Below, piece after piece: positions 28,176 to 33,740 of a stretch of DNA of 33,740 nt. Each line of letters opens with the position of its first letter. Positions within the stretch are counted from its first letter, which is position 1. The stretch comes from Verrucomicrobiota bacterium (GTDB lineage: Bacteria > Verrucomicrobiota > Verrucomicrobiia > Opitutales > Opitutaceae): positions 1 to 33,740 of the forward strand of contig VHCY01000015.1 of NCBI GenBank assembly GCA_016871595.1, in the 5' to 3' direction. The notes below the pieces were generated by a model, which searched no databases, was not told where the DNA came from, and saw only the letters and a list, made by a program, of their open reading frames with translations. Both the position numbers and the translations under genes were made by a program.

Positions 28176-29357
28176 ATGACCACCGTACCCGTCAAGATCC
28201 CGCCCATGGGCGAGTCCATCACCTCCGGCGTTCTCGCCAAGTGGCACGTCGCGGAGGGCGCCACCGTGCGCCGGGACCAGCCGCTGTTCGAACTGGAGAC
28301 CGACAAGATCACCTCGGAGGCCACGGCCGAGGCGGCCGGAGTGATTCGCCTCGCGGTCAAGGCCGGCGATGAGGTCCGCATCGGCCAAGTCGTCGCCACG
28401 ATCGAGGTCGGCGCCACCGCCGCCGCCCCCGCTCCCGCCCCGGCCGCCGCCACGCCCGCCGCCCCGGCGCCCGCGCCGGTCTCGCCGGCCGTCCGGCGCG
28501 TGGCCGCGGAAACCGGCCTCGACCCCGCGAAGGTCAGCGGCACCGGCAAGGCTGGCCGCGTCACCAAGGGCGACCTGCTCGCCGCCGCGGCCGCCTCGCC
28601 CGCGGCCCCCACGCCGGCTGCACCCGTGACGTCCGCCACCGCGCCCGCCGCCCCGGCCGCCCGCCAGACGCGCCGCAAGCTCTCCCCGCTGCGCGCCCGG
28701 CTCGCGCAGCGCCTCGTCGCCGCCCAGCACCAGGCCGCGATGCTGACCACGTTCAACGAGGTCGATATGTCCGCCGTGATGGCGCTGCGCGCGCGTTACC
28801 AGGACGAGTTCGTCAAGCGCCATGGCCTCAAGCTCGGGTTCATGTCCTTCTTCACCAAGGCCGTCGTCCACGCCCTGCGCGAGGTGCCGGCGGTGAACGC
28901 CCAGCTCGACGGCGAGACGCTGGTGGAGAACCACTACTACGACGTCGGCGTCGCGGTCTCCACCGACCGCGGGCTGATGGTGCCGGTGATCCGCGGCTGC
29001 GACCAGCTCGGCCTCGCGGAGGTGGAGAAAGGGATCGCCGACGCGGCCAAGCGCGCGCGCGAGGGCCGCATTACCCTCGCGGACCTCGAGGGCGGCGTGT
29101 TCACGATCACCAACGGCGGCGTCTTCGGCTCGATGCTCTCGACGCCCATCATCAACCCGCCGCAAAGCGCCATCCTCGGGCTCCACGCCATCAACGAGCG
29201 GCCCGTCGCGGTCAACGGGCAGGTCGTCATCCGCCCGATGATGTACCTCGCGCTGAGCTACGACCACCGCCTGATCGACGGACGCGAGGCGGTGACCTTC
29301 CTGGTCAAGGTGAAGCAGGCGATCGAAGATCCCGCCCGCGTCCTGATCGGCCTCTGA
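28176..29357 (+). CDS. sucB: 2-oxoglutarate dehydrogenase E2 component (dihydrolipoyl succinyltransferase)
   Basis: The 393-residue protein has one lipoyl domain with the lipoylated Lys in [10 protein letters not shown] (Lys44), an Ala/Pro-rich linker, a peripheral-subunit-binding domain ([20 protein letters not shown], near 108-140), a second Ala/Pro linker and a catalytic domain ending [16 protein letters not shown], which contains the His and Asp of the active site. [12 protein letters not shown] and the [20 protein letters not shown] stretch are typical of SucB and not of AceF. It sits 13 nt after sucA and 13 nt before lpdA; the leader is CCCCCTCCCCCG with no Shine-Dalgarno. Confidence 0.96.
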
Positions 29358-29370
29358 TCTGCCCCCCGCG

Positions 29371-30768
<1,398 letters not shown>

Positions 30769-30796
30769 GGCGGGCCGCCGGTCCGACGGCCGAGGC

Positions 30797-32394
30797 TCAA
30801 CCCTTGGCCGCCGTCAGAGTCTTCCGGGGCAGGCGCATGACGCGCACGAACCGCGCGCGGAATAGCTCGTCCAGGGTTTCCCGTACCGCGGGAGGCAGGC
30901 GCGCGACTAGGTCGTCGAGTTCGGGCGCGGGGCCGACTGGCTGCGTTTCCGCGGTCTCGGGTTCCGCGGCCGGCGTCGGCGTGGCCGACACCGCCTCCCC
31001 GCGCTCGCGGGCCTCGGCGAGGAATTGCGCCTCCGCCGACTCATCCGGCCAGGCGGCATCAGGCTCGCCGGGCGGCGCGGCCTCGACGGGAACAGGAGGC
31101 TCCGCGGCAAGCAGTCCCATCGCGGGCGACGGCGGAACGCCGGGCGGGAGTGACGCGGCGGCGGGCGTTTCCGGCGAGGCGACGGGCAGTGGCGACTGAT
31201 GCGCACGCGCCGCGGACGCGGAGGCCAGGCGGGCCTCCAGCCGGTCAATCAGGCCTTTTTTTTTTCGTCGGCCGCCGGGGCCTCCTCGGCCAGGGCGGTC
31301 AGCTCCTTGAGCAGGCTGTCGATCGCGCGGGCGCGGCTCGCCTCGACCGCGCGGAGGAGCGTGACCTCGAAATTGATCTTCTCGGCCAGCCCGAGCTTCA
31401 CCCCACCCTCCCCCTCGCGCAGCGCGTCGAGGAGCCGGGTCAACTGCTCGGTCGTCAGGGCGATGCCGCCGAGCGCGTCGCTGCGACCGCCGCGCGCGAT
31501 CGCGTCCAGTAGCGCCGCCCGGAACACGGCCTGCAGGTCGGTGAGCAGGCGCACCAGGTCGCGGCCCGCGGCGTCGCAGGCATCAACCAGGGCGACGAGG
31601 CGCCGCTGGTCCCCGGCGGCCACGGCCCCGGCGAGCTCGGCGACCTGCGCGGCGGAGACGAGGCCGTAGACCTCGAGCACGTCGGGCTCGGTCACCGTGG
31701 TCCCGCAGAACGAGATCATCTGGTCCAGGATCGACTGCGCGTCGCGCATCCCGCCGTCGGCGAGCCGGGCGATGCACGCCAGCGCGGCGGGATCGGCCTG
31801 GATGCCCTCGGCGGCGGAGATCAGCTGGAGCCGGGTGACGATGAGCTCCTCGGGGATCGGCTTGAGGTCGAAGCGCTGGCAGCGCGAGACGATCGTCGGG
31901 AGGACCTTCTGCGGGTCGGTGGTCGCGAAGATGAACTTCACGTGGGCCGGCGGCTCCTCGAGGGTCTTCAGCAGCGCGTTGAACGCGGCCGCCGAGAGCA
32001 TATGGACCTCGTCGATGATGTAGACCTTGAACCGGCCTTGGGCGGGCGCATAGCGGACGGTCTCCCGGAGGTCGCGGACCTGGTCGACGCCGTTGTTGGA
32101 GGCGCCGTCGATCTCGATCACATCGAGGTGGGAACCCTCGGCGATGGCGATGCAGGCGGGATCGGCCGGGTCGAAGTCGGCGTTGGGGCCGCCGGTGCAG
32201 TTAAGAGCCTTGGCGAAGATGCGGGCGGTGGAGGTCTTGCCGGTGCCGCGGGGTCCCACGAACAGGTAGGCGTGGGCGATCCGCTGGCGGGCGATCGCGT
32301 TCCGGAGCGTGCGCACCACGTGGTCCTGGCCGACGACGTCGGCGAACGTGCGGGGGCGCCACTTGCGGGCGATGACCTGGTAGGCGGAGGACAA
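30797..32394 (-). CDS. dnaX: DNA polymerase III subunit tau (dnaX, made by -1 frameshift)
   Basis: The frame-0 reading stops at 31249, but the -1 frame entered at the A10 run is open for 152 further codons to 30797. Joining them gives tau of about 532 residues: 380 from the clamp-loader ATPase part and 152 from the tail. The tail runs [20 protein letters not shown], then a long Pro/Ala/Glu-rich linker, and ends [29 protein letters not shown] with a basic end. It is much shorter than E. coli domains IV-V and I cannot match it to them. The tail should link clamp loader, polymerase and helicase in the replisome; that role is inferred from position. The joint is at 31255. Confidence 0.85.
31220..31238 (-). 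promoter_or_regulatory. Hairpin downstream of the dnaX slippery site
   Basis: The minus strand reads GGAGGCC-CGCCT-GGCCTCC, a perfect 7-bp stem with a 5-nt loop, starting 16 nt after the slippery heptamer. Typical stimulators sit 5-9 nt away, so its role is uncertain. Confidence 0.45.
31249..32394 (-). CDS. dnaX: DNA polymerase III subunit gamma (dnaX, in-frame product)
   Basis: The frame-0 product is 381 residues and matches domains I-III of DnaX. Walker A GPRGTGKT (47-54), [18 protein letters not shown], Walker [11 protein letters not shown], sensor [20 protein letters not shown] with the SRC motif, and [14 protein letters not shown] are all present. The start is taken as TTG at 32394, giving [17 protein letters not shown], which aligns Walker A with E. 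coli. No in-frame ATG or GTG lies nearby. Of the four zinc cysteines of E. coli DnaX only two seem to remain (Cys66 and Cys81, with Asp-rich DFDPADPAC between). The product ends KKKA-stop just after the A run. The SRP RNA gene is 89 nt upstream on the same strand. Confidence 0.9.
31255..31265 (-). promoter_or_regulatory. dnaX slippery site: A10 run with in-frame A AAA AAG
   Basis: On the minus strand the codons are GAC GAA AAA AAA AAG GCC TGA. The heptamer A AAA AAG (31261-31255) is the same type as the E. coli dnaX -1 site. The ten-A run would also permit RNA-polymerase slippage as in Thermus. Re-reading by -1 enters the tau tail. A GAGGAGG lies upstream (15 nt before the A run), as a possible stimulator. 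Confidence 0.85.
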
Positions 32395-32473
32395 GCGCGG
32401 GGAGGTTGAGCGGGGCGGGCGGGACGGCGCGAGTCGAAATCGTCGCGCGCGGCCCCGGACGCCGGCCGCGGGC

Positions 32474-32489
32474 AAAAAAAGTGGCCAGG
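32474..32489 (-). terminator. Terminator at the ffs 3' end
   Basis: The closing helix of the SRP RNA (CCTGGCC) is followed within two bases by seven T residues (32480-32474), so the RNA's own terminal stem can act as an intrinsic terminator. dnaX would then need its own promoter or read-through. Confidence 0.65.
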
Positions 32490-32578
32490 CACTCCACGGC
32501 ACTGGGAGAACGTCGTCACCGTTGCTACCTTCCGGTCCTGGCGGAGTTCACGCGCCTGCCCATGCATGGCACCTGGCC
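32483..32578 (-). ncRNA. ffs: Small bacterial SRP RNA (4.5S)
   Basis: The minus strand contains the SRP domain IV signature GCCAGGACCGGAAGGTAGCA with the GGAA tetraloop, preceded by GTGAACTCC and followed by ACGGTGACG. The outer ends pair perfectly (GGCCAGG at 32578-32572 with CCTGGCC at 32489-32483), giving a rod of about 96 nt, the size of short 4.5S RNA. The RNA binds Ffh and directs membrane-protein targeting. It is 55 nt after the LOG-family stop and 89 nt before dnaX. ffs next to dnaX is a common bacterial arrangement. No clear promoter was seen. Confidence 0.93.
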
Positions 32579-32632
32579 GAGGCGGACGATGAGCCGGGGG
32601 CGGGGCGGCGCAACCCCCAATTTGGCGCGGCG

Positions 32633-33740
32633 TCAGAGCACCTGCAGTTTGCGGCGGTAAAAGGCCACAACCTCGTCGGGATCGTCGGTGAAGAGGATGT
32701 AGTCGGTCATCCATGCGGGCGCGCGGCCCTGCTTGATCATCACGCGCAGCTGGCGGCGCAGATCCTCCCAGAACTCGGCGTTGAAGAAGACGTAGGGTAC
32801 CCGCGGGCGGATCCCCAGCTTGAGATTGCAGAGCTCGATTCCGACCTCCTCGAGGGTGCCCACGCCGCCGACGTTGAAGACGCAGAAATCTGCCGCCTCG
32901 AACCACTTCTGCCGGAAGTGACGCGAGTCCTCTTGAAACGTGTTGAAGAAGTCCACGCCGAGCTCCGGGGGCTGGGCCTCCAGCTGCAGGAAGCACGCGC
33001 CGGTGAGCGCGCCCTTGGCCCGCGCCTGCTCGGTGGCGAGGCGCATCACCCCGCCACCCCCGCCCGTAAGCACGCCGAGGTTGTGGCCGATGAAGCCCGT
33101 GACCTTGTCCACGAGCGCGGAGATGCGGCCGGCGTCGTCCGGGTCGAGGTTCACCGCCGAGCCGTAGAAGGCGAGGATGGTAGACTCGTTGAACCGGCGG
33201 GCGACCTCCTCGCGCACGAAGAAGCCGCGCTCCCGCTTGTAGGTGTGGACGTAGAGGTCGCGTGTGGTCTCGTCATACCAGTACGCGTCGATGCCTAGGG
33301 ATCGAAGCGTATCGAGTCGCCCATGGGCGTGGCTGGAGAAGAAGTACCCGTGGGTGCGCGAGGCCTGGCGGAAGACGATGCGCCGCAGGCCGAGTTCGGG
33401 CAGGCGGGCGAAAAGCTCCACCTGCTCCATCAGGCCCGGGAAGTATTCCGTGACCAGCGTGTCGGCGCCGGGCTCGGCCGCGTCGAGGGCCTGGATCATC
33501 GTGCGGTGGCCGAGGGAGCCGCGCTTCGATTCCAGGAGCCGGCGGACGTCCGCGCCGGCGCGCACCAGGAGGGCGCGGTTGTCGACCGCCCCGGACTGGC
33601 CGCGCACGGACAGCCGGGTGCGGGGCCGCGCCTCGTCGGCGACGCAGGCGGGGCAGTCGTCCATCGCCTTGAACAGGCCGGCGGCGGTCGCGAGCAGGCG
33701 GGTGCGCTTGCGGGCGAGGGTCCGCACCTCCGGGTCCTCG
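32633..33740 (-). CDS. LOG-family (lysine decarboxylase-like) protein with N-terminal extension, start outside the window
   Basis: The frame is open to the right edge. A GTG at 33727 would give 364 residues, but in-frame EDPEVRTLARKRTR continues past it, so the real start may lie beyond. The C-terminal 190 residues form a Rossmann-like LOG domain: LAFYGSAVNLDPDDAGRISA, LTGGGGGVMRLATEQARAKG, then SRHFRQKWFEAADFCVFNVG with the catalytic Arg, and VGGVGTLEEVGIEL (Glu retained; Pro of the usual PGGxGT replaced by Val). LOG enzymes cleave nucleoside monophosphates at the N-glycosidic bond. An extension of about 170 residues at the N-terminus (GADTLVTEYFPGLMEQVELF) matches nothing I can name. Activity here is inferred. 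Confidence 0.8.
   Translation of the reverse strand, partial: EDPEVRTLARKRTRLLATAAGLFKAMDDCPACVADEARPRTRLSVRGQSGAVDNRALLVRAGADVRRLLESKRGSLGHRTMIQALDAAEPGADTLVTEYFPGLMEQVELFARLPELGLRRIVFRQASRTHGYFFSSHAHGRLDTLRSLGIDAYWYDETTRDLYVHTYKRERGFFVREEVARRFNESTILAFYGSAVNLDPDDAGRISALVDKVTGFIGHNLGVLTGGGGGVMRLATEQARAKGALTGACFLQLEAQPPELGVDFFNTFQEDSRHFRQKWFEAADFCVFNVGGVGTLEEVGIELCNLKLGIRPRVPYVFFNAEFWEDLRRQLRVMIKQGRAPAWMTDYILFTDDPDEVVAFYRRKLQVL

Follow-up and report, generated by a model that had tools for sequence, protein, structure and literature searches.

How could a dnaX gene whose reading frame stops immediately behind a run of ten A's provide its bacterium with two subunits of the clamp loader? This question is raised by the minus strand of a stretch of 33,740 nucleotides from contig VHCY01000015.1 of an assembly of the Opitutaceae (order Opitutales, phylum Verrucomicrobiota; GCA_016871595.1), which is called the window in the following. 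A preliminary description had pointed to a ten-A run at the end of frame 0 of dnaX, to a 152-codon continuation in the -1 frame, and to the heptamer A_AAA_AAG in frame 0 at the run; all of these are present in the sequence as described (Table 1). The gene matched TIGR02397 with 418.6 bits (cut-off 250), and Pfam matches were DNA_pol3_delta2, DNAX_ATPase_lid and DNA_pol3_gamma3. Among nine family loci inspected, the start codon is TTG in eight and ATG in one (L012), at the same place before YQVIARK. On the minus strand, the junction reads GAC GAA AAA AAA AAG GCC TGA, with the stop one codon past the last codon of the run. The octamer CTGATTGA contains stops in two frames simultaneously; past the run, one codon precedes the stop in frame 0 and three precede it in frame +1, and the tau frame reads Leu-Ile-Asp at this place.

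Table 1. Positions of dnaX, its junction elements and its neighbours in the window.
Feature	Position	Strand	Remarks
dnaX frame 0 (gamma product)	31249..32394	-	381 aa; stop TGA 31249-31251
dnaX start TTG, inferred	32392-32394	-	same place as in family relatives, before YQVIARK
A10 run, proposed slippage site (T10 on + strand)	31256..31265	-	from the sequence
CTGATTGA octamer	31245..31252	-	TGA 31249-31251 (frame 0) and TGA 31245-31247 (+1)
Tau-specific tail, -1 frame	30797..31255	-	152 codons; stop 30797-30799
Conserved C-terminal tau motif	30815..30922, limits approximate	-	HMM and alignment of ten tails
Pyridine nucleotide-disulphide oxidoreductase gene	29371-30768	+	converges on dnaX
2-oxoacid dehydrogenase acyltransferase gene	28176-29357		adjoins the oxidoreductase gene
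Upstream neighbour of dnaX	32633-33727	-	Pfam match, C-terminal quarter only

As to the surroundings of the gene, 28 bases lie between the stop codons of dnaX and the oxidoreductase gene. The latter probably encodes the E3 of the neighbouring 2-oxoacid dehydrogenase, because the acyltransferase gene adjoins it. The upstream neighbour gave a match to the Pfam family "Possible lysine decarboxylase", and its product is presumably of the LOG type. Promoter and terminator scans of positions 30600-32800, including the gap between the oxidoreductase gene and dnaX, found none.

Runs of A8 or longer occur at one place in the window (three overlapping matches), compared to a mean of 0.01 in 100 dinucleotide shuffles, which were used for estimating the expectation. 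In the 3.6-Mb assembly, four places with A9 or longer were found on both strands, and the sole A10 is that of dnaX, in agreement with the earlier statement that such a run is rare in coding DNA of this kind. Within the frame-0 reading frame of the six nearest loci (L001, L003-L007), AAA was present at 3 of 67 other Lys codons and GAA at 15 of 131 Glu codons. Both codons are uncommon in these loci, and the sequence GAA AAA AAA AAG is therefore contrary to codon usage.

For comparative analyses, dnaX was read in 210 distinct loci, which came from searches at the level of relatives, class, phylum and order after removal of six duplicates; L002, a weak match elsewhere in the genome, was excluded. 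Among the 57 genomes of the relatives search, seven were without a usable dnaX (G005, G013, G026, G036, G037, G048, G052), as were seven of the 103 genomes of the order search at E 1e-60. The order is represented by 128 loci from 127 genomes (G224 contributes two) and the class outside the order by 43 loci, five of 48 genomes being absent (G074, G082, G085, G098, G110). Runs were scored only at query positions 395-435, and later runs (e.g., in L118 and L231) are uncounted; L178, L183 and L196, which end at contig ends, were counted as run-bearing and are outside the frame counts.

Alignment with relatives had been proposed for judging whether the A run and the -1 tail are conserved, and both proved to be so. 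A run of A9-A13 was found at the same place of dnaX in 114 of the 128 order loci (87 with A10, 23 with A9, 3 with A11 and 1 with A13), and the GC content of the 111 readable run-bearing loci ranged from 0.35 to 0.74. The nearest named records (L223-L226, Opitutaceae or Opitutae, 65-81% identity) all possess A9 or A10 with tau at -1. The tail is, judging from the alignments, under purifying selection: its dN/dS values were 0.23-0.41 in 15 pairs from six close relatives, and gaps consisted of whole codons only. In the other orders of the class, the run was present in none of the 42 loci with a readable junction (L130, the 43rd, ends short of it); among loci from the phylum's other classes, 10 of 39 carry it at the junction. 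From these sequences, the run appears to be widespread in the order, is not seen in the sampled sister orders, and reappears further out. The two dnaX loci of G224 (L151 and L217) are different from each other, and both have A10 with tau at -1; they possibly represent two strains in one bin (contamination value 4).

Relatives with one frame and no run, which the preliminary description had regarded as speaking against programmed recoding, do exist: 14 of the 128 order loci are run-less, 13 without a run at this place and one, L149, with A8, which was counted as run-less. The 114 others are unaffected by this, and the run-less loci may be read as loss or absence of the site. In seven of the 14 the tau motif (see below) was detected at E < 0.001, namely in L034, L035, L149, L050, L204, L209 and L211. 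All seven lack a run of nine and encode the motif without a break in the frame; they would thus have tau without the site. In L210, also run-less, no tail was seen beyond the frame-0 stop.

The motif at the end of the tail, LP..vR..L.ELFRA.F, occurs across the order. When families were left out one at a time, the best-scoring frame of the motif HMM agreed with the length-based choice in 110 of 112 loci, the two disagreeing loci being L193 and L176 (best score of L176, 0.4 bits); the match of L157 in its own frame was at chance level (E 21). At E < 0.001, none of the 43 loci of other orders and none of the 39 loci of other classes contained the motif, in a frame-0 reading of run-less and outside loci which excludes the -1 tails of L099 and L106 and the cut L130. 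Searches with the tail gave no Pfam family above the cut-off (best, hnRNP_Q_AcD, E 0.24) and no match in NCBIfam. The sole match of a ten-tail profile in the Protein Data Bank, a C-type lectin (E 0.0024), was taken as chance. In Escherichia coli, tau couples polymerase and helicase; by analogy, the tail may act like the tau domains IV/V elsewhere, i.e., by binding helicase and polymerase core.

The frame in which the tail is encoded is not uniform within the order. Of the 111 readable run-bearing loci, 68 have the long frame at -1, 26 at 0 and 17 at +1; counted by families, tau is at -1 in eight, at 0 in 13 and at +1 in five, and five families (f8, f19, f20, f56, f58) are of mixed tau frame. 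In the window's family, each of the 38 loci (from as many genomes) has tau at -1. One locus, L193, was first assigned to -1 by length and then to frame 0 by the motif; the third-frame closure test (see below) keeps it at -1. A gene tree of the gamma part was constructed by a quick method from 111 rows: family f1 was represented by 13 of its 38 loci, the rest of the order by every locus and the outgroup by 8 loci; support was weak at 28 of the 108 inner branches. On this tree, at least 13 changes of the tau frame are required among 86 order rows, several of them depending on single loci of draft assemblies, compared to a minimum of 31 and a mean of 36 changes in 100 label shuffles on the same tree. 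The tau frame is therefore inherited, yet often changing. Three pairs of loci with similar flanks differ by one A: L144 (A9, frame 0) and L171 (A10, frame +1); L160 (A11, frame -1) and L164 (A10, frame +1); L181 (A11, frame 0) and L183 (A10, with the contig ending in an open -1 frame). Within each pair, the number of A's in the mRNA giving tau would be equal modulo three.

The frames not used for tau are closed soon after the run. Both contain a stop within 10 codons in 101 of the 111 loci and within 20 codons in 108; a non-tau frame is open beyond 20 codons in L043, L044 and L193. The last of these (from G211) is the one locus with a non-tau frame far from closed: its tau is in frame 0 (114 codons), and a stretch of 119 open codons lacking the tau motif is present in its -1 frame. 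For the 86 loci which were scored as having tau outside frame 0, stops in the third frame, which a -1 ribosomal shift does not enter, come earlier than expected from the remainder of each gene (p = 0.0015, Fisher over 12 family medians), in a test which is crude, with overlapping null positions and L193 mislabelled, and which is weak in some families (medians of 0.47 in f11, 0.43 in f60 and 0.30 in f4). Where families encode tau in frame 0, early closure was evident for one of the other frames (p = 4e-5) and weak for the remaining one (p = 0.09). Closure of the third frame in the window's family results from the encoding of Ile by the less common ATT: 33 of the 38 loci have Ile at this place of CTGATTGA, with ATT in 31, which share ancestry and are hence non-independent, and ATC in two, compared to ATT at 237 of 1098 Ile codons in the remainder of these genes.

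The dnaX gene of the window can be considered, on these grounds, a well supported case of a recoding gene with gamma in frame 0 and tau in the -1 frame, since the site is conserved, the tail is conserved and the alternative frames are closed. Its two clamp-loader subunits are probably obtained by transcriptional slippage. RNA polymerase would slip on A10, yielding, besides mRNAs of 10 A's, some with 9, 11, 12 etc. Translation of the unslipped mRNA (10, or 13 A's) would end just past the run, with gamma (381 aa) as the product. An mRNA with one extra A (11, or 8 or 14) would have the -1 tail joined and would give a tau of 532 aa, consisting of the clamp-loader core, a linker and the conserved C-terminal motif, and the third-frame mRNA (9 or 12 A's) would stop within four codons, which should result in a second gamma-like product. 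Slippage adds or removes A's; therefore tau would be reachable from any DNA frame, and both other frames must close. The reading is favoured because three tau frames occur, including +1, because both other frames are closed, and because a stem-loop is lacking. We infer both RNA polymerase as the slipping agent and the product ratio.

Several properties of the junction bear on the question of polymerase or ribosome. The length of the run is kept more than the heptamer, A_AAA_AAG being in frame in 49 of 111 loci. The 60 nt after the run gave no indication of downstream structure, with a mean z of -0.29, one of 23 loci below -2, and a value of -0.15 for the window. No conserved Shine-Dalgarno sequence was found upstream of the run among the 23 loci checked; AGGAGG precedes the run by 15 nt in just two of them, the window and L005, and a Shine-Dalgarno-like match of 4-6 nt occurs within 22 nt in 12 of the 23, including these two. 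A gene for tRNA-Lys(CUU) was found in G000, and the same pattern gave no tRNA-Lys(UUU). For Thermus, the accessible text of PMC5009743 considers that a tRNA for AAG may explain the use of slippage rather than ribosomal shifting. The choice between ribosome, polymerase or both had been left open in the preliminary description; of these, the comparison favours the polymerase, and a ribosomal contribution is possible in the window's species and its family, where tau is always at -1 and A_AAA_AAG is common.

Programmed -1 ribosomal frameshifting on A_AAA_AAG, with the roles reversed compared to E. coli and tau as the shifted product, would make use of a heptamer which the window has in frame, as have 47 of the 68 tau-at-minus-1 loci; it would also be in line with the constant -1 position of tau in the 38 loci of the window's family and with AGGAGG upstream of the window's run, and, as far as the text seen of PMC5009743 goes, tau is apparently made in this manner in many fewer bacteria. 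Alone, however, it provides no route to the long product in the 17 loci which encode it at +1; it requires neither A9-A10 nor a closed third frame, it lacks its stem-loop signal (mean z given above), tRNA-Lys(CUU) is present, and 21 of the 68 tau-at-minus-1 loci have other heptamers. We regard it as unlikely. Any tau frame and two closed frames could be explained equally by ribosomes sliding on poly-A in several frames without an error of RNA polymerase. In the parts of PMC4363877 consulted, multi-frame sliding on A runs was reported for E. coli systems, even on AAA-AAG under a forced pause; the minimum given there for the PURE translation system is 11 A's, and the length of A9 or A10 in 110 of the 114 runs makes sliding an improbable explanation.

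Phase variation, in which DNA slippage switches cells between a gamma-only and a tau-making state, would be consistent with the one-A differences in run length between relatives. A replisome subunit would be expected to be necessary in every cell, however, a single length is kept in clades f16 (5/5 A10) and f60 (4/4 A9), and not one of the 38 loci in the window's family has tau in the template frame 0; we consider this explanation very improbable. The same is held for a separate gene in the tail, translated by reinitiation after the gamma stop. One of ATG, GTG or TTG does occur within the first approximately ten tail codons in 32 of the 85 loci with tau outside frame 0, but the first such codon in the window is tail codon 46 (median index 20 in the 85 loci), and both the A run and the relatives with tau in one frame would be left unexplained. 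A sequencing or assembly error in the homopolymer, or a decaying gene, is the least credible possibility and practically negligible. The window's genome is indeed an assembly of 444 contigs, homopolymers are error-prone, and single odd lengths in one locus (L160, L181) could be mistakes; yet tau is at the template -1 throughout the family (38 of 38 loci, 38 genomes), near stops recur in frame 0 and +1, and the tail shows the purifying selection mentioned above.

Transcriptional slippage has been described or suggested for other dnaX genes. According to the accessible text of Antonov et al. 2013 (PMC3711429), 17 two-ORF ("reversed") dnaX genes from 12 genera, all of the -1 type and dependent on recoding for tau, were described; nine of these possess 10 A's, and slippage was suggested for these nine. 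The window's gene resembles them in having gamma in frame 0, a stop right after the run and the tau tail at -1, and in a tail which is conserved as protein (the dN/dS values and the motif given above). As judged from that text, it is a member of this already known two-ORF A10 kind, and Opitutales may be among its A10 species, since its set had four Verrucomicrobia genomes. Tau at +1, drift of the frame within one order and differences of one A were not found in the portion of PMC3711429 consulted. In the open-licence literature, which was searched mostly by title, no title or abstract dealt with slippage of dnaX in Verrucomicrobiota, and the same literature yielded nothing in print on an order-wide drift of the tau frame (+1, three-way, one-A differences).

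Thermus thermophilus dnaX has A9 and uses transcriptional slippage, with tau in frame 0 and gamma resulting from slippage (PMC1088944, PMC5009743, both as far as accessible). A run of 9-10 A's before the tail and near stops in both other frames are common to both systems. The window differs in that frame 0 encodes gamma, and tau would have to arise by slippage; in 26 of the 111 order loci, tau is in frame 0. In E. coli, gamma is the shifted product, and a stem-loop, an upstream Shine-Dalgarno sequence and a sole Lys tRNA are involved (PMC5009743, PMC3711429, in the text available). The window shares with it A_AAA_AAG in frame and the gamma/tau pair, whereas it has no stem-loop signal, its gamma is unshifted, i.e., the roles are reversed, and a tRNA-Lys(CUU) gene is present in G000. 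The frameshifts in A runs of Blochmannia dnaX fall inside the tau-only part and not at the junction, according to the passages seen of PMC3017870.

Other arrangements were encountered outside the order. L088 and L094, from another class of the phylum (family f51), contain A9 and then A10, about 26 codons apart, with both non-tau frames closed within 7 codons after each of the two runs; these tandem runs are possibly a double slippage site. Five loci (L231, L239, L249, L251, L278), from records named Verrucomicrobia, Bacteroidetes and Ignavibacteria, have A9 or A10 and encode tau in frame 0, with the other two frames stopping after at most 9 codons. In L249, L278, L239 and L251 (Ignavibacteria, Bacteroidetes), the arrangement is that described for Thermus.

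For the order as a whole, we are somewhat inclined to the view that an efficient slippage site has made the tau frame nearly neutral, so that the frame in the DNA drifts between 0, -1 and +1, also through gains and losses of single A's between relatives, and selection maintains a run of at least nine A's and the stops in the other two frames. The order offers a natural series (tau in 0, -1 or +1, run lost, A9 to A13) for studying run length versus the gamma:tau ratio, which also bears on the question why some lineages manage without the site. The comparative test, i.e., a closed third frame and tau at +1, helps to separate slippage from -1 ribosomal frameshifting. Gene finders which follow one frame would truncate tau wherever it is outside frame 0, as is the case in 85 of the 111 loci. 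If slippage is true, most of a bacterial order relies on the stutter of RNA polymerase for its tau, and if the drift is true, the frame of part of dnaX would be set in the transcript rather than in the genome.
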